Positions 39,535-53,197 of a stretch of DNA of 53,197 nt are shown piece after piece. Within the stretch, counting starts at the first letter, position 1; each line of letters opens with the position of its first letter. The notes below the pieces were generated by a model. The model worked only from the letters and a program-made list of their open reading frames with translations, did not search any database and was not told where the DNA came from. The position numbers were made by a program, and so were the translations under genes. Source of the DNA: Methanosaeta sp. PtaB.Bin018 (GTDB taxonomy: Archaea > Halobacteriota > Methanosarcinia > Methanotrichales > Methanotrichaceae); the NCBI GenBank assembly GCA_002067755.1, contig MVQH01000095.1, forward strand, positions 1 to 53,197, in the 5' to 3' direction.

Positions 39535-41361
39535 TCAAAGCCAGCCGCCCTCATCCTGGAATGGGTATTTATCCGTCGTTCCACCTTTGATGATCATAGG
39601 CCAGTTCTCGCTCGGATTGCCTTTGGCAACATGGCCGCTCCAGTAATTTCCGCCGATGACATTGCCCCCGTCCCAGCTATTGTTGCCGTACAAGTCTTGC
39701 GAATGCTCCTTGTTGTTGATGAAGTTGTTGTGGTAGATCTGATTGCCTGAGGAGTAAATGATCTGCAGGCCCATAGGATTGTTTGTGATGTTATTCTGGT
39801 AGATCTGATTGTCGTTGGAGTAATTGAGCCAGACTCCAGTCTCGTAGTTGTGATCCACAACGTTGCCGCGAATGGTATTATTGCTGCAGTCGAGAAGCGA
39901 TATACCATTTTGATTGTTGCCCGAGGCAGCGTTTTCGACTATCTGATTTGAGTTTGAGCTGACCAAGAACATCCCACTGTATCTGTTGCCTAACAGACGG
40001 TTTCCAAAGACCTCATTTCCAATTGAGTTCACCATGCGTATGCCATAGCAATTTGATACATTGTTCTCCTGGATCTTGTTTTGGTTTGAGTTGAAAAGGA
40101 AAATGGCATCATTGGTGACATCGTTCCTCTGCAGGATAAAATTATTGCAATAGGCCAATGTGATATGAGCGAGCTTTTTATTCTGTATGAGCCCGCCCGA
40201 TTTTCCATAGACGTAGGCTACAGGCGCTCCGTCCACCAGATTTGATTCGTCGATGGAATTGTTGAATCCTTCTTTTAAGGAGCTCTCCACATAGAGGCTC
40301 CACTTTATCTCCTGGATTCTGTTGTCCTTCAGCAAGTTGGCTGAAGAGTCCAGCATGATGATGCCCTTGTCTCCTCTGGAGATTTCGTTGTCCTGCAAGC
40401 TGTTGCCGTTGGAATAATCTATCTCTATTGCAGTGTCTTTGACGTCACTAATGCTATTTCCTGTTATTATGTTTTCACGACTTTTTGCCAGACCAAAGGC
40501 ACGAGTGCTATTCACAATTCTGCAACCAGCGATTGTGTTCCAATTGGAGTTCTCAAGGGCAATGCCGAACTCCACGTTCTTGATGCTGTTGTTCTCGATC
40601 TCCTGGCCACTGCAGTTCATGAAGTACATTCCGCGCAAACTTCGAGATACAGCATTGTCCCTCAGATCGCCTGAGGTGCTATTGAAGATCCATATCCCAT
40701 ATGTCTTGGCCTCAATCTTGTTTCCAATGATCTCAGAATCGCTGCTGTTCATCAGCCAGATGCCCATAGATGAGCCGTTCGCACTATTGCCAGTGATGCT
40801 GTTCTCTCCAGCGTCCCTGATCAATATGGCGACCGTTCCGCCAATGATCTCGTTATCGAGCACATTGTTGTCGCTTGAACCTGTCAGCAGGGCCACTCCA
40901 CCCTCGCAATCCTTCACGACGTTCTTGGCAATGGAGTTCATGTGCGAATCTCTGACGAGTATTGCAGGGTTATCCTTCTCAAATGCGTTCTCCTTGATGG
41001 TGTTCCCGTTCGAGCGGACATGTATCCCCGGTCCTGTGAAGTTCTCAAAGGTCAGACCCTCCAGAGAGCAGCCATCTGAGGTTATCGTAATTCCTGTCTC
41101 CTTCCCATCTCCTTTGAGGACTATCGGCTCCCTCTCGCCAAGGAGTGGCATGAGGGATACGCTCTTGTTCAGAATTACCTCTTCGTGATAGTTTCCAGGC
41201 TTGACATAAATTGTGTCGCCATTATCTGCAGCGATCACGGCTTCTTGGATGGTCTTATAATTGGCGAAGCCGTCATCATCCACGATGTACGATCTTGCTC
41301 CATCAATTGGTTGGAGCCATATGAGCAAGACGATGAAGATGATCACGGTATTTCTTGGCAT
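39535..41361 (-). CDS. Secreted right-handed beta-helix (NosD/PbH1-type) surface protein
   Basis: 608 residues from ATG 41361. The signal peptide MPRNTVIIFIVLLIWLQPID is followed by the IVDDDGFANYKTIQEAVIAA region that opens many archaeal surface beta-helix proteins, then about 20 coils of the PbH1 type, marked by N-rich turns (for example GNSISDVKDTAIEIDYSNGN). The C-terminal NxNxWDxG region (NNSWDGGNVIGGNYWSG) is typical of NosD/periplasmic copper-binding family members. Likely a carbohydrate-binding or structural surface protein. An upstream start at 41427 would precede the signal peptide with a polar stretch, so I reject it. Confidence 0.88.
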   Translation of the reverse strand: MPRNTVIIFIVLLIWLQPIDGARSYIVDDDGFANYKTIQEAVIAADNGDTIYVKPGNYHEEVILNKSVSLMPLLGEREPIVLKGDGKETGITITSDGCSLEGLTFENFTGPGIHVRSNGNTIKENAFEKDNPAILVRDSHMNSIAKNVVKDCEGGVALLTGSSDNNVLDNEIIGGTVAILIRDAGENSITGNSANGSSMGIWLMNSSDSEIIGNKIEAKTYGIWIFNSTSGDLRDNAVSRSLRGMYFMNCSGQEIENNSIKNVEFGIALENSNWNTIAGCRIVNSTRAFGLAKSRENIITGNSISDVKDTAIEIDYSNGNSLQDNEISRGDKGIIMLDSSANLLKDNRIQEIKWSLYVESSLKEGFNNSIDESNLVDGAPVAYVYGKSGGLIQNKKLAHITLAYCNNFILQRNDVTNDAIFLFNSNQNKIQENNVSNCYGIRMVNSIGNEVFGNRLLGNRYSGMFLVSSNSNQIVENAASGNNQNGISLLDCSNNTIRGNVVDHNYETGVWLNYSNDNQIYQNNITNNPMGLQIIYSSGNQIYHNNFINNKEHSQDLYGNNSWDGGNVIGGNYWSGHVAKGNPSENWPMIIKGGTTDKYPFQDEGGWL

Positions 41362-41740
41362 AAGCCTAACATACTTGCTAAGGCTCCTATTATAGTTAAT
41401 GCAACCATCGGGGCATTGTCTTGGCATATCAAGAGAACCCCTTTATTTCCAGTGGAAAAATAAACCAAAAATTTTTTCTCCACGAGACATACCTCTCCAC
41501 CAGTCAGATCAAATTGTAGGATATTAATTATAATATTATTTAGTAAGTTATGGATCATTAAAGCGCATCTCCAAGTCCAAATGGGCCTTTGTAGCTATCT
41601 TATTTGGGCATTTTTCCTGGTAGGACACCCATTACTAATTTGAAGTAAGTAATCCCGTCTTATAACAATTCTGGATTTGTGCTGTGTTGTGCAAAACCTT
41701 ATTAACCCTCATGTCTCAAATGTACCTGGTCGATGATAGG

Positions 41741-46390: not shown

Positions 46391-46627
46391 ATGACAAAAA
46401 AATTGGATGAAATCAATGCGCCAAAAGCTGTTCCACGTGAGTCTGACAATCCAATCGTGGAAGAGTACAAGGAGGAGCTTCTGACAAGGCCTGCCTATGG
46501 CGTGCACCCGGCGACAGCCGTTGAAGAGGCAAGGCTTTGCCGCATGGAGGGCCTCCTGGCTGAGATGAGAGATAAGGTCGATAACCTGGAGAGAAGGCTC
46601 AAGGCATTAGAGGGCAGAAGGCAATAA
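46391..46627 (+). CDS. Small coiled-coil protein, 78 aa
   Basis: A polar protein whose second half ([34 protein letters not shown]) forms a heptad-repeat coiled coil, likely a dimer. Preceded by GAGGTGGGAT as ribosome site. Its last 21 nt overlap the end of the convergent copA gene. Family unrecognised. Confidence 0.72.
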
Positions 46628-49078
46628 CATCTCTTTTGCTGGCGGGGTATACCTTTTGAGCAGAAGTGAGAGAGAGACGACTGTCACCGAGCTCAAGGCC
46701 ATGGCCAGGCCTGCAAATTCAGGTCGGAAGGTAATGCCATAAAATGGAAAGAGCGCTCCTGCAGCAACTGGAACCAGCAGAGCATTGTAGGCGAAGGCCC
46801 AGAAGATATTCAACTTGATCCTCGATATGACCTTGCGGCTGAGCTGAATGGCGGCCACGGCATCCAGCAGATCGTCCTTCATCAAAACGATCTCTCCCGT
46901 CTCGATTGCGACGTCTGTTCCGCTGCCGATGGCAATGCCGACGTCTGCCTGCGCCAGAGCTGGAGCATCGTTGATGCCATCGCCAACAAAGGCCACCTTG
47001 CGTCCTCCTTGCTGCAGCCTCTTTATCTCTTTGGACTTCTCTTCTGGCAGAACCTCGGAGAGGACCTGCTCAATGCCAAGCTGATTTGCCACAGCGGATG
47101 CACTGCGAAGATTGTCCCCTGTGATCATAACCACGCCAAGTCCCATCTTCTTAAGCTCGGCGACTGCTCTTCTGGCCGAATCTTTCAGCTTATCGGCGAT
47201 CCCCAAGACGCCACAGCCTTTTCCGTCCAGGGCGATCAGAATGGCAGTCTTTCCCTGTTTCTCGAAGTCGGATGCCTTCGCCAGCAGCTCATCTGGCGTT
47301 TCAATGCCCCTTTCCAGGAAGAGCAACCTGTTCCCGACCACCACGCTCTTTGCATCAACCTTTGCTAGCACGCCCTTTCCTGGCAGGGTCTCGAAATCCG
47401 TTGCTCCTATGAGGCTGATTCCCTGGGCCTGGGCCTTCCTGACCACCGCCTCAGCTAAAGGATGCTCTGAGCCCTTTTCAGCATTTGCGGCCAGCCTCAA
47501 AAGATCGATCTCATCTATGCCAAACGATGTCAGGTCTGTGACATCTGGACGCCCTACAGTCAGCGTGCCGGTCTTGTCGAAGGCGACTGAATTGAGCTTC
47601 TCTGAGGCTTCCAGAGCCTCACCGCTCTTGATGAGAATTCCAATCTCAGCTCCCCTGCCAACGCCCACTGTGACTGCTGTGGGCGTCGCCAGGCCAAGGG
47701 CGCATGGGCATGCCACTACTAATACTGATATGAGGGCCGTCAGCGAGAAGAGCAGCGTCTCGCGGGCGATGAAGTACCAGTAGACGAAAGCAAGGGCTGC
47801 GATGGATAGAATTGTAGGAATGAAATAGCTCACCGCACGATCGGCTATCCTCTGGATGGGCGGCCTCGATCCTTGAGCCTCCTGTACGAGCGAGATGATC
47901 TGCGCCAGAATGGTCTCACGGCCAACTTTTGTGGCCCGGAATCTGAGGACTCCGTTCTTGTTGATAGTCCCACCCACCACATTTTGGCCAACGACTTTTA
48001 GCACTGGAACGGGCTCGCCTGTGATCATCGATTCGTCCACATAGCTCTGACCGTCCAGGACAAGTCCATCCACTGGAATCTTCTCTCCAGGCTTGACCTG
48101 GATCTGGTCACCGACCACGACCTCCTCCACAGCCACCTCGATCTCGGACCCATCCCTCAGGACAGTGGCCTTCTTGGGCTGCAGACCTACCAGCTTCCTG
48201 ATGGCCTCGGAGGTGCTGCCCTTGGCCTTCGCCTCCAAGAAACGCCCAAGCGTCAGAAATGAGGCAAGCATGATCGCCGTCTCGTAGAACATGAAATCCG
48301 AAGTGAGCACTATCCCAAATGTGCCAAGTATGCTGGAACCATAGGCCACACCGATGCCCATGGCGTACATCACATCCATGTCCAGGCTCCTGTTGCGCAT
48401 GGCCCGGAATGCTGCGCGAAATATTGGAAGGCTGACGTAGATGAAGGCTGGGGCGGACACCACCAGCATGAACAGATTCATGAAATTGGGAGCTGTCATG
48501 AAGATGCTCATGGGAATGAAATGGTGAACTGGCAGGTACATCAGAGCCATTAAGATGAGGCTTACTGCAAAGCCGATTATGATCCGCCGTTTCTTGTCTG
48601 CCAGATCCTTCGCCAGCAATGCCTTCTCCTGATCTGCAGATGCCTCCTCGCCAGCAAGCCCCAGGAACTGATAGCCAATATCGGCCACTGCCACTTTGAG
48701 ATCTTCCAGGCCTACCATTCTGGGATTGTAACTGACGTAAGCTTTCTCCGACGCCAGGTTCACGCGCACATCCACGACGCCGTCCAGCCTTTTAAGTCCG
48801 GCCTCAAGAGCTCCAACACACATGGCACAGGCCATGCCGCCAATCTTCAGCACAACTTTTTCGTCGACAACATCATAGCCCGCATTCCTGATCGCCATCT
48901 CGATGTCTGCCAGCTTGAGCTTCTCTGGATCGTACTCGACTGTCGCAATCTCTGTGCCAAGATTTACCTCGGCATGCACAACCCCCTCTTTGCTCCTGAG
49001 GGCCTTCTCGATGGCTGCGCTGCATGCAGCGCACGCCATTCCAGTGACCTTTAATTCAGCTCTCTTGGGATCGGACAT
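46607..49078 (-). CDS. copA: Copper-translocating P-type ATPase (CopA)
   Basis: 823-residue P1B-type ATPase that exports Cu+ from the cytoplasm. Two N-terminal metal-binding domains with C16/C19 (GMACAACS) and C84/C87 (GMACAMCV), eight membrane helices, actuator TGEP at 353-356, membrane CPC at C457/C459, phosphorylated D501 in DKTGTLT, and [10 protein letters not shown] near residue 700. All key residues are present. It is encoded 28 bp downstream of the FTR/rubredoxin gene on the same strand, hinting at co-expression with a thiol-redox system. Confidence 0.95.
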
Positions 49079-49106: not shown

Positions 49107-49631
49107 CTAAATGAACCTCTCAAACCTCTCCCGGCCTGCCTTGCAGATGGGACAGACTTCAGGCGGCCCTTCTCGACCGCAGAGGTAGCCGCAGACAAGG
49201 CACCTCCACACTGGCACTGAGAGCTTCGCGGGCACGGCATCAAGGCTTGCGCCAGATGATCCGGGCTTTGCCGCTCTGCTCTCGAATGGCGGCCTTCTCT
49301 CAGGAATGCAGCTCAGCTCCTTTTCGCCTTTCAGGACTGCTGCAGAGACATAAAGCGCACAGTAGCAGGCCCCGAACTCCGAAAGATCTGCGTCTCTGTA
49401 GTAGCAAGGACAGATGATGTCGAGATCCTGCTGCTTGTCGTCTGCAGCCAGCCGGCAGGGGCAGGCACGGTAGCCGTAGCGCCTCTCGTTTATTAGCAGG
49501 CCTCTGACCAGGCCCTTGACGAACTCGGCTTCTCGGTTGAGGAAGTATCCGCCTTGTTTTGCCTCTCTATCCAGGCGGGCATAGAGCTCATCCACCTCGC
49601 TGTCGGTCGGCTCACCGAAATTCTCGTTCAT
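49107..49631 (-). CDS. Ferredoxin:thioredoxin reductase catalytic domain fused to rubredoxin
   Basis: 174 residues. The N-terminal domain (1-110) has the FTR catalytic pattern CPC (57-59), CPC (74-76) and CYC (89-91), for a [4Fe-4S] cluster next to a redox-active disulfide; the C-terminal domain is a rubredoxin (C144/C147 and C160/C163). The rubredoxin probably delivers electrons in place of plant-type ferredoxin docking. The stop of the glutaredoxin gene overlaps its start (49631), so glutaredoxin is likely its substrate: electrons from rubredoxin to Fe-S to disulfide to glutaredoxin. Confidence 0.92.
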
Positions 49632-49906
49632 CAGCCAAGTGCCTCCCGGATCTCCTTCTCCCTGAAGCCCACAATGCTCTTATCTCCAATGACGAGCGTA
49701 GGAAATGAGGTGCTCGGATTGTAATGCTTGACCTGCTCTATCGCCTTGGACCTGTCCTCTCCCTTCAGCAGATCGACATAAATGTAGTCGAAAGAGACGC
49801 CCAACGCCATCAGAAGCTCCCTTGTCCTCTTGCACCAGATGCAAGTGCTCAAGGCATATAGAGTGATCTTGCCTTTTTCCTCTCCCGCAACATGTTCAAA
49901 ATTCAT
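49631..49906 (-). CDS. Glutaredoxin-like protein
   Basis: 91 residues, thioredoxin fold with active site C22-IW-C25 (STCIWCKRT) and the cis-Pro motif [16 protein letters not shown]. Its stop overlaps the FTR/rubredoxin start, forming a two-gene unit; a TATA-like AAATTATTTATC lies upstream at about 49940-49951. Probably reduces protein disulfides or carries metal/sulfur in the cytoplasm. Confidence 0.93.
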
Positions 49907-49999: not shown

Positions 50000-50037
50000 G
50001 GTTCAAAACCAAAGATCAGGCTCAAAACTAAAGATCA
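50000..50037 (+). repeat. Tandem 19-bp repeat at the end of the Dsr-like operon
   Basis: GGTTCAAAACCAAAGATCA and GGCTCAAAACTAAAGATCA (17 of 19 identical). On the minus strand, just past the stop of the last gene at 50035, these give T-rich blocks that may end the operon transcript. Confidence 0.7.
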
Positions 50038-50367
50038 AAATGCATAGAGCTTGTTCTCCTCATTCATCGCATCATCGACCAGGCGCTCGTAAAAATCAAC
50101 CAGCACCACCGTTTTATCTTTAGCCTGCACGCCCCTTGCCTCCAGATCCTCTTGGCAGGCCACAATCCTGTTCAGTGGCAGGTCTTCGAGGGCCTCTTCT
50201 AGCAGCATATAAACTCCATCTCCGGCCAGATAAAGGACGGCATTTTCAGACAGCGAAATCAAGCGCATGCAAAACCTGGCACGTTCGCTGAAAGGAGGCT
50301 TGGTCAGCAGGAAAACGTCCACCCTGGGTCCTTTGGCGTCTGAATGCAATTGTCTATCTTGCTCCAT
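50035..50367 (-). CDS. DsrH/TusB-like sulfur-relay protein
   Basis: 110 residues with the DsrH pattern: VDVFLLTKPPFSERARFCMR, NAVLYLAGDGVYMLLEEALE, and the VACQEDLEARGV region where TusB has its Cys-containing loop; ends in a VDFYERLVD motif. In the TusBCD complex the H/B subunit supports persulfide transfer. Last gene of the operon (12-bp gap after the DsrF-like gene). Whether the target is tRNA, molybdopterin/Fe-S or arsenic chemistry is unknown. Confidence 0.85.
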   Translation of the reverse strand: MEQDRQLHSDAKGPRVDVFLLTKPPFSERARFCMRLISLSENAVLYLAGDGVYMLLEEALEDLPLNRIVACQEDLEARGVQAKDKTVVLVDFYERLVDDAMNEENKLYAF

Positions 50368-50379
50368 GAAACCGAATCC

Positions 50380-50721
50380 TCATAATACTATCACCGAATC
50401 GGATGCTACAGCCTCCTCTATGAACCTCTCATCGTCGACCAGCTCAACCCTTTCGATGAGGCTCTGGCTAAAAAGGCCTCTCTTTGCTAGCGAAGGCTCA
50501 TGGGCGATGACCCTCATCTCGGGATAGGCATAGATCGTGTCCGAAAGGTTGGGAACCCCAAGTGCTCTGCTATCTTGCCCTGCCAGCGCCAGGTACACTC
50601 CATCCGCATAGAGGCCCACTATGACGTCCATCTTGATGCTCACGGCTGCAGCGTTGAGCAGCCCGTAAGCTTTCTCGCTCCCATATGGTGCAACATCCAG
50701 CATGTAAAAGACAGATCTCAT
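50380..50721 (-). CDS. DsrF/TusC-like sulfur-relay protein
   Basis: 113 residues with YGSEKAYGLLNAAAVSIKMD and GLYADGVYLALAGQD, the DsrE/DsrF fold signature. It contains no cysteine near the position used by DsrE, as in TusC, whose role is structural. Start overlaps the preceding stop (ATGA at 50718-50721). Confidence 0.87.
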   Translation of the reverse strand: MRSVFYMLDVAPYGSEKAYGLLNAAAVSIKMDVIVGLYADGVYLALAGQDSRALGVPNLSDTIYAYPEMRVIAHEPSLAKRGLFSQSLIERVELVDDERFIEEAVASDSVIVL

Positions 50722-51083
50722 TTTGATAGAGCGATGACTTTATCGCTCTCCTTCAACATCTCAGCCAGATCATACAGGCTTGTGATCTCAATTCCCGGAA
50801 GATATTCTTGGCATACGCCATCTGCAGCCTGATAGCCACGAGCTGCTGCACATCTTGGACAGGCCCTGATGGTTGCTCCATTGGATGCCAGCTCCTCAAA
50901 AAGCCGTCCGATATTGACGAAGTGCACAGGATTCTGGCTGCCTTTTGGTATGTGCACTGCATCAAGGTAGAGGAAGATATTTACCTTGTGGTGCACCAGG
51001 GCAGCTTTCGCAATTTTTACCGCCATCTCTGCGCACTCGGAGATGTAAGGCCCGTCGGTGAGAATGATGGTCAGAGTCGCCAA
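50718..51083 (-). CDS. DsrE/TusD-like persulfide carrier
   Basis: 121 residues. The DsrE fold ends in the reactive loop ATIRACPRCAAARGYQ with C75 and C78, followed by C91; one of the first two corresponds to the persulfide-carrying Cys of TusD. As the E subunit it would accept sulfur from an upstream donor, for which the rhodanese at the head of the operon is the obvious candidate. 12 bp after the regulator gene. Confidence 0.87.
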   Translation of the reverse strand: MATLTIILTDGPYISECAEMAVKIAKAALVHHKVNIFLYLDAVHIPKGSQNPVHFVNIGRLFEELASNGATIRACPRCAAARGYQAADGVCQEYLPGIEITSLYDLAEMLKESDKVIALSK

Positions 51084-51095
51084 TGTGCCACACCA

Positions 51096-51896
51096 TCAGA
51101 GGTATTCCAGCAAGGTCCTGATATGCTCCAGGTTGGTTGCATATTTTGCCTCAAGCAGGGGAGTGCATTTATCAAGCGCCACCTCCCTTCCCACCAGCTT
51201 GATTGCGAAGGCATAGCAGCTCTGCTCTCCACAGATTTGGCAATTGGTCTTGGGAAGGTACTCGTAGATCTCGGCATGGTCAACCTTGATCTTCTCGCGC
51301 GGGACCGGAGTCACTCCTTTGACTATCGCCTCATTGATTGTCTTCTTCATCTCCTCCAAAATCTCGCGCGCCTCCTCCTCGCTCTTGATCATTGTCATGG
51401 TCACATTGCCCGTGGCATAGATGGTGATGAGAATATTGCCCTTCTGGATTATGAGAGCACCAATCTTCTCAGAGTATCTTGCTCTTGGAAATAGTGGCTC
51501 CAGGAGTTTGAGGGCGCCTTCCAGTGGAGGCTCAAGCCGGGCAATGATCCTGAACTTGGATTCATCGGCAATGCAGGGCAAGAGCTGGCGAATTTCCAGG
51601 ATCTGCAGCGGCTTGGTTTTGGAGAGGTCCTTCTTAGTTTCATCAGGCTTTTGTGCGGATTTGGTCTCCATGAAGTTCTTTCCAAAATCCGTAAGAGAGA
51701 GCACACCATCGTCATTCTCTGCTAGGCCTGCCTGCTGCAGCATTTGCAGATGGTAATCCAGCATGGAGGCACCGACCTCTTTCTCAATCTCCTCTCGTGT
51801 CCTATCTTTCTCCACCAGCAAGGCCATGATTTTTCTTCTAGTTGCGTTTGCCATGGCATTGCTCACCAACTTCACATTTGCGGAAGGGCTTGTCAT
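51096..51896 (-). CDS. ArsR-type HTH regulator fused to an Fe-S cluster domain
   Basis: 266 residues from ATG 51896 (ribosome site GAGGTGAT ends 6 nt before it; ATG 51902 would be too close). An ArsR-type winged helix spans residues 5-75; a middle alpha/beta domain lies at 95-190; the C-terminus has C-x2-C-x4-C-x16-C (C219, C222, C227, C244), the [4Fe-4S] ligand spacing of corrinoid Fe-S proteins and RnfB. The CxC pair by which classical ArsR binds arsenite is absent, so sensing may go through the cluster. Located between Acr3 and DsrE. Confidence 0.9.
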   Translation of the reverse strand: MTSPSANVKLVSNAMANATRRKIMALLVEKDRTREEIEKEVGASMLDYHLQMLQQAGLAENDDGVLSLTDFGKNFMETKSAQKPDETKKDLSKTKPLQILEIRQLLPCIADESKFRIIARLEPPLEGALKLLEPLFPRARYSEKIGALIIQKGNILITIYATGNVTMTMIKSEEEAREILEEMKKTINEAIVKGVTPVPREKIKVDHAEIYEYLPKTNCQICGEQSCYAFAIKLVGREVALDKCTPLLEAKYATNLEHIRTLLEYL

Positions 51897-51916
51897 ATCC
51901 ATATCACCTCTTGAGC

Positions 51917-52993
51917 TTATGTCTCGCATGAGACCTTTGCTGGCAGGTCAGGGTAAAATCTCCCTCTCAGCTTCAGGGCCACGTTCACGAGGGCGATCAG
52001 CACAGGAACTTCGATGAGCGGCCCGATCACTGCTGCAAAGGCCTCTTGAGATGCGATGCCAAAGACGCCCACAGCCACAGCGATAGCCAGCTCGAAGTTG
52101 TTGCTGGCGGCCGTGAATGACAAAGCCGCAGTATTCTCGTAGTTCACGCCCAGCTTGTATGCCATGAAGAAGCTGACAAAGAACATTAGCAGGAAGTATG
52201 CTGCCAGGGGTATGGCCACTCGCACCACATCAAGGGGAAGCTGTACTATGTAGTCGCCCTTCAATGAGAACATCACAATGATTGTGAAGAGCAATGCAAT
52301 CAGAGTTATGGGAGAGATCTTGGGAATGAAATCCCTCTCGTACCAGCTTCTTCCTTTGGCCTTCATCAGACCGAATCTGGTGATCATTCCTGCCAGAAAT
52401 GGTATCCCCAGATAGATGAATACGCTCTCTGCGATCTGGGCGACTGTTACATCGACCAGAGTTCCCTCGGCTATGCCAAGGGCTGCAGGAAGCACTGTGA
52501 TGAAGACATAGGCATAGACAGAGTAGAACAAGACCTGAAAGATGGAATTCAATCCCACCAGGGCGGCGCAATACTCGGTGCAGCCACAGGCAAGCTCATT
52601 CCAGACTATGACCATGGCGATGCATCTTGCAAGGCCGATGAGGATTATCCCGTACATTAGGTGAGGATAATCTCGCAGGAAGATCACTGCCAGTGCAAAC
52701 ATTAGAATGGGACCTACTATCCAGTTCTGCACAAGTGAGAGGCTAAGGACCTTCCTATCCTTGAAAACTTTCCCCAATTCTTCATACTTTACTTTGGCCA
52801 GCGGCGGATACATCATCAGAATGAGGCCGATAGCGATAGGTATCGATGTTGTGCCGATCTGCAAGCTTAAGATAAACTGAGTAATTCCTGGTGCATAGTA
52901 GCCTGCGGCCACGCCGAGGAACATGGCCACGAATATCCAGACGGTAAGGTAACGGGATAGAAAATCCAGTCCCTTACTTACACCATTTGACAT
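51917..52993 (-). CDS. Acr3-type permease (arsenite exporter family)
   Basis: 358 residues with ten membrane helices, family Acr3 (bile/arsenite/riboflavin superfamily). It has the key motif [12 protein letters not shown] with C124, the Cys required for arsenite transport in known Acr3, and [20 protein letters not shown] in the last part. Unusual: three further cysteines, C136, C138 and C142 ([11 protein letters not shown]), follow directly. It exports As(III) or possibly another soft or thiolated oxyanion. Gap of 20 bp to the regulator; 33 bp after the rhodanese. Confidence 0.92.
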
Positions 52994-53026: not shown

Positions 53027-53197
53027 TTAACTGCCAAGCTTTGTAAACTTCGAGCCTGCAGAGCTTCCCATGGATGTGATAGCTGCGGTCTGCGAGTTTG
53101 CTGTATCATGCTCTTTCCAATCCTCCCATGTGTAGATGCTGGCCTTGTATCCCATGAGCTGCAGAGCATACCAGACCAGAGATGACCGGCTGTAGTC
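53027..53197 (-). CDS. Rhodanese-like protein, C-terminal part only
   Basis: The visible 56 C-terminal residues include YSRSSLVWYALQLMGYKASI and YTWEDWKEHD, the rhodanese segment just after the active-site loop. The catalytic cysteine would be just beyond the right edge. It ends 33 bp before the acr3 start on the same strand, so it is the first visible gene of the sulfur/arsenic operon. The N-terminus and any signal peptide are outside the window. Confidence 0.75.
   Translation of the reverse strand, partial: DYSRSSLVWYALQLMGYKASIYTWEDWKEHDTANSQTAAITSMGSSAGSKFTKLGS

Follow-up and report, generated by a model that had tools for sequence, protein, structure and literature searches.

An ArsR-like winged helix joined to a TATA-binding-protein half-repeat and a predicted [4Fe-4S] domain in an arsenic gene string of Methanosaeta

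Domain composition and closest described relatives

Proteins of the ArsR/SmtB family, such as CzrA, the A. fulgidus ArsR (1y0u) and SqrR/BigR, are winged-helix proteins associated with ars operons, SqrR and BigR being persulfide-sensing members. According to PMC12343034, ArnR and SufR are winged-helix regulators that carry a C-terminal [4Fe-4S] cluster, and the three cysteines of ArnR are scattered along the chain (residues 179, 193 and 223). The methanogen redox regulator MsvR is a dimer with an ArsR-type N-terminal dimerisation interface; as described in PMC3729527, MsvR has a V4R domain with cysteines and no Fe-S domain, and binds TTCG-N7-9-CGAA.

We analyzed a stretch of 53,197 nucleotides from Methanosaeta sp. 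PtaB.Bin018 (contig MVQH01000095.1, assembly GCA_002067755.1), hereafter the window, in which an ORF on the minus strand (51096..51929) encodes a protein of 277 aa. Based on profile searches, an alignment of homologues and structure models, this protein consists of an ArsR-like winged helix, a half-repeat of the TATA-binding protein (TBP) and a predicted [4Fe-4S] domain. An in-frame ATG at 51896 (M12), the end given in the initial annotation, lies about where most homologues begin and another ATG, at 51902, is the start used by the close relative L007; the sequence makes one of these two codons the likely true start. A MarR/ArsR-like head and a C-terminal cluster, the latter predicted here, are common to this protein and to ArnR and SufR as described in PMC12343034; yet its cluster cysteines, unlike those described for ArnR, form a compact C-x2-C-x4-C-x16-C domain of the corrinoid-protein type, and a TBP half precedes them. 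With MsvR it would share the role of a methanogen redox regulator, a dimeric state and an ArsR-type dimerisation interface at the N-terminus; it differs from MsvR in its Fe-S domain and in having no V4R domain.

The protein has five cysteines, C119, C230, C233, C238 and C255, all of them invariant in 20 of 20 aligned homologues; this alignment (A1) comprised 18 of 25 loci together with the window and L002, loci L006, L010, L011, L024, L025, L027 and L030 being left out. Comparison with three relatives gave dN/dS values of 0.07-0.11 (dS 0.31-1.05), and the gene is under purifying selection.

The winged helix spans residues 15-91 (51657..51887, minus strand). Fold comparison of the AF2 model showed a resemblance to CzrA (4ggg; Z 13.4, 86 aligned residues, 2.2 A) and to SqrR (Z 12.6), and the A. 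fulgidus ArsR 1y0u matched at E 2.4e-6. No CxC pair precedes the recognition helix, the first cysteine of the protein being residue 119, and none of the 20 aligned homologues has a cysteine in the winged helix (by eye). The claim of an ArsR-type winged helix devoid of CxC therefore stands. NF033788 matched this domain at E 2e-6, below its cut-off, and the curated ArsR cut-offs were not reached by HTH_5 (19.2 against 22 bits) or HTH_metalloreg (27.5 against 55 bits). Thus, the fold and the location in an ars operon are shared with the ArsR/SmtB proteins, whereas the lack of winged-helix cysteines, the scores below the cut-offs and about 180 added residues (TBP half plus Fe-S domain) are not. 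An ordinary ArsR as a full description is ruled out by the absent CxC, these scores and the extra domains.

The same low scores, together with the existence of relatives without the head, would agree with a winged helix that has lost any transcriptional role and is only the dimerisation part of an Fe-S protein. However, the 20 sequences hardly vary in the recognition-helix segment MLDYHL and the dN/dS values are low, and we regard this explanation as most improbable. The winged helix as a whole is well conserved in the Methanosarcinia (alignment of 20), which suggests that DNA binding matters in this class.

The middle domain, residues 103-204 (51318..51623, minus strand), was absent from the initial annotation and corresponds to a single half-repeat of the TBP fold. 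PF00352 matched it at E 2.9e-4, with 21 bits against a cut-off of 22.9 (22.9 bits in the genome translation), and reached 24.8 bits against the same cut-off in the homologue L060. A profile built from 24 modules (TBP half plus Fe-S domain) found the Methanocaldococcus TBP (MjTBP) at E 4.5e-6 among 177,635 PDB sequences. The module was also modelled separately, since the PDB matches of the whole protein were mostly winged helices; the module-only model had a mean pLDDT of 83.9, and its 32 best fold matches were all entries that hold a TBP, with Z 12.3 for 1mp9 (94 aligned residues, 2.3 A) and Z 11.9 for MjTBP 2z8u (87 aligned residues, 1.8 A). HHalign of the TBP part against the TBP halves gave E 1.9e-4 and probability 48 for the N-half and E 1.2e-3 and probability 19 for the C-half; this result is weak alone, and the TBP fold is accepted only together with the PDB profile search and the fold matches of the module model. 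The relative placement of the domains in the models is uncertain (pTM 0.43 for the whole protein and 0.58 for the module).

The Phe that TBP inserts into DNA is borne by its FPG stirrup. No FPG stirrup was seen in the extracted module sequences (by eye), and neither the Pfam search nor the AF2 model revealed a second tandem half-repeat in the protein. In spite of its likeness to the fold of one half of TBP, the protein differs from TBP in having a single half, no stirrup, and a fused winged helix and cluster domain; a true TBP paralogue is ruled out by the single half and the missing FPG. The fifth invariant cysteine, C119 (51573..51575, minus strand), likewise absent from the initial annotation, lies within the motif LPCIAD, where an extra strand ahead of the TBP half ends. 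It is a cysteine in 61 of 61 extracted modules, which came from 57 of 73 loci, the other 16 yielding no module; as the extraction pattern selects on the cluster cysteines, only the C119 count is unbiased.

The C-terminal domain, residues 225-257 (51159..51257, minus strand), scored 45.1 bits with PF04060 (E 8.1e-12; cut-off 23 bits), with C230, C233, C238 and C255 in register and spaced exactly as C-x2-C-x4-C-x16-C. The cysteine spacing and the likeness to corrinoid Fe-S proteins had been noticed from the sequence at the outset, and both were borne out. Among PDB sequences, the module matched the large subunit of the corrinoid iron-sulfur protein best (E 5.6e-11), and the N-terminal [4Fe-4S] domain of this subunit (2ycl) superposed on the tail with Z 8.7 (57 aligned residues, 1.7 A, 32% identity). 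The four cysteines are predicted to hold a [4Fe-4S] cluster. The corrinoid domains of the large subunit (2ycl, 2h9a) are absent here.

Gene neighbourhood

In the window, acr3, the gene of an arsenite efflux permease, lies upstream in the same direction (51917..52993, minus strand; TIGR00832 E 4.4e-134, 446.9 bits against 282.8), and beyond it the contig ends within a rhodanese-like gene, of which only the 3' part is present (53030..53197, minus strand; tblastn). On the downstream side, a DsrE/TusD-like gene is found after 12 bases (50718..51083; PF02635 E 5.4e-17), followed by a DsrF/TusC-like gene (50380..50721; PF02635 E 1.7e-9) and a DsrH/TusB-like gene (50035..50367; PF04077 E 1.2e-9, TIGR03011 over its cut-off), all on the minus strand. 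The context is therefore the acr3/dsr operon that had been proposed. In relatives, acr3 comes after genes for a CxC ArsR and a rhodanese, and in L007 (93% identical) the same gene string opens with a separate ArsR that has the sequence ELCVCEI; by comparison with L007, an arsR gene is expected past the rhodanese gene, beyond the contig end.

Downstream sequence of 1 kb or more was available for 37 winged-helix loci, and in 31 of them dsrE-dsrF-dsrH follows the gene directly (tblastn), the others being L008, L025 and L063-L066. Within the stretches examined, acr3 was present in 23 of 39 winged-helix loci, and acr3, ArsP, ArsM or ArsC in 33 of the 39; many of the loci counted are close relatives and not independent events. 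The frequency of ars genes, the adjacent acr3 and the ArsR-like fold without CxC agree with the initial annotation, which had proposed an arsenic or redox repressor of acr3 with the cluster in place of the CxC site. However, the gene string of relatives begins with a CxC ArsR, 16 of the 39 winged-helix loci have no acr3 in the stretch examined, and the module exists without the winged helix. We consider a repressor of this kind quite unlikely, and the swap of the CxC site for the cluster is not supported, given the separate ArsR of the relatives and the occurrence of the module alone elsewhere. Redox, sulfide or metalloid attack on the cluster is a possible signal.

Several other genes of these regions were recorded. 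In L096 (3410-3883, a second copy in the same genome), L013, L015 and L029, the second-type copy is immediately preceded by an ArsR that has lost one CxC cysteine (ELCIGEL or ELGICEI), and the ArsR of L096 has a Cys-rich N-terminus. A paralogue of MtrA (L061:2200-2748; PF04208 E 3.1e-43) is found beside arsM in an arsenic island. In the window, a ferredoxin-thioredoxin reductase beta chain domain (PF02943 E 3.9e-21) is fused to a rubredoxin-like domain (PF21349 E 5.9e-13) at 49107-49631, adjoining a glutaredoxin (49631-49906) and a heavy-metal P-type ATPase (46607-49078), and positions 39535-41427 encode a protein of 630 aa whose N-terminus is signal-like and whose many short repeats resemble a parallel beta-helix (by eye).

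Occurrence of the module in archaea

A survey of 392 genomes of the window's phylum, in which a strong full-length match was defined by E below 1e-100, gave such matches in 13 of 15 genomes of the window's family and in 21 of 60 genomes of a second family of the class (by eye, genomes listed). In Methanosarcina-type genomes a pair of copies separated by about 1 kb is frequent. Other families of the phylum have forms of about 180-200 aa that consist of the TBP-half and FeS module without the winged helix. A copy 78% identical to that of the window, with the whole Methanothrix-like ars/dsr gene string, was found in L016, a contig of a Candidatus Methanosuratincola MAG (JACIVP010000020.1), perhaps through transfer or mis-binning. 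In the phylum of this record, 28 matching genomes among 250 were obtained with E values up to 1e-20, some of these matches resting only on corrinoid-protein-like Fe-S domains. In this second phylum the module either stands by itself, in many cases close to a CxC ArsR, or is joined to a different N-terminal stretch, in which no Pfam match was found when L141 and L142 were scanned. Since the module occurs alone in other archaea, the winged helix looks like an added part, as judged from these sequences; and since headless forms exist, the module acts without a DNA-binding head.

The differently headed proteins of the second phylum (Thermoproteota) are located at L141:4561-5694, L142:4349-5347 and L143:4503-5651. 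The first has DsrH, DsrE and DsrE-family genes after it (Pfam), and the gene order in the other two is alike (by eye). In headless loci dsrE-dsrF-dsrH was found in 1 of 22 (L071), a count that may miss divergent homologues because the queries were taken from winged-helix loci and contexts; ars genes were present in 5 of 23, as with ArsP and Acr3 in L075 and L086. The triad stands beside the module in headless L071 and in the differently headed Thermoproteota, and therefore what keeps to the triad across phyla is the module rather than the winged helix. A stretch resembling the TBP half was also observed in L130 (G022:C1:1100500-1105500, minus strand), in a 661-aa PAPS-reductase-like protein (by eye), where it opens with an SPC motif and is followed by a ferredoxin-type Cys pattern.

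This distribution bears on another explanation, in which the protein is mainly a working part of the DsrEFH relay, a sulfur acceptor or redox partner in sulfur or thioarsenic handling, with C119 as the carrier, the cluster as the electron source and the winged helix as an add-on for autoregulation in methanogens. The headless and second-head forms keep all five cysteines (in modules extracted by the cluster-Cys pattern), the DsrE/H triad is a neighbour of the module in two phyla and the L130 protein combines similar elements, all of which speak for such a part; yet most headless loci are without dsrEFH, and the conservation of the winged helix in the Methanosarcinia suggests that DNA binding matters there. 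We judge it unlikely as the main function, though the likeliest alternative to the role favoured below.

Operator box and proposed role

The aligned upstream DNA of Methanosarcina-type loci contains an inverted repeat, ATCAA-N6-TTGAT, which 14 of 16 loci have within the 500 bases upstream; a 17th, L053, was left out because the start pattern used for the count did not match it. A scan for the inverted repeat in 691,793 bases of context gave 25 matches with a gap of 6, none with gaps of 5 or 7, three with a gap of 4 and two with a gap of 8. The box also occurs upstream of arsM, arsR and ArsP genes, and in G309 seven of eight strict sites fall within 16.3 kb of chromosome. PMC9137774 gives the same sequence as the core motif for ArsR of other bacteria. 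Because the box lies upstream and equals the ArsR core motif, the gene belongs to an ArsR-box regulon in Methanosarcina-type genomes. ArsR homologues were present in all 12 genomes searched for a reader of the box, and where the box is present it could be read by ordinary ArsRs encoded in the same island.

In the window no ATCAA-N6-TTGAT was found even with one mismatch allowed (2.64 expected by chance), and its genome has no strict TATCAA-N6-TTGATA. The box was accordingly rejected as an operator of this gene in the window.

The function that we favour, with a confidence slightly short of even, is sensing within the arsenic regulon: the protein would be a DNA-binding dimer, and its TBP/FeS module would cooperate with the DsrEFH sulfur relay, beside a separate CxC ArsR. 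For this role speak the domains, the five invariant cysteines, the purifying selection, the gene order, the box in Methanosarcina-type loci and the likeness to ArnR and SufR. Against it stand the headless forms, of which 21 of 22 loci had no dsrEFH in the search with queries from winged-helix loci and contexts, the missing box in the window and its genome, the ordinary ArsRs as possible readers of the box elsewhere, and the uncertain relative placement of the domains. Such a protein would dimerise through its winged helix and bind operator DNA in the arsenic regulon, and its module would be the receiving end, as partner of the DsrEFH relay. DNA binding would then be altered by sulfane sulfur delivered by DsrEFH, or by attack of As(III) or oxidants on C119 or the cluster, so that acr3-dsrEFH expression would be tuned to the sulfur, redox and arsenic state, and the separate CxC ArsR would sense arsenite alongside the three-domain protein. 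A more specific proposal, which we consider rather improbable, is a transcription factor gated by the sulfur relay: DsrEFH would load sulfane sulfur onto C119 of a TBP-half receiver domain and the [4Fe-4S] cluster would reset it, the two TBP halves of the dimer would lie next to each other as in the TBP saddle, and the sulfur charge would switch an arsenic regulon. If true, the regulator would receive its charge from a sulfur-transfer chain of its own, and a TBP fold would have become a sensor.

Winged-helix regulators with [4Fe-4S] clusters and persulfide-sensing ArsR proteins are known, and the addition of a TBP half and a cluster domain of the corrinoid-protein type is apparently new; no description of the three parts together was found in the literature covered, which did not extend to the 2013 review of the TBP-domain superfamily. 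On this evidence, the protein probably couples arsenic defence to sulfur or redox state as a sensor of an unusual kind. It is a case of a TBP half-repeat that serves as a module away from basal transcription, fused with an Fe-S domain and conserved in two archaeal phyla under three N-terminal arrangements, and it connects arsenic defence with a sulfur relay whose role in methanogens is unclear.
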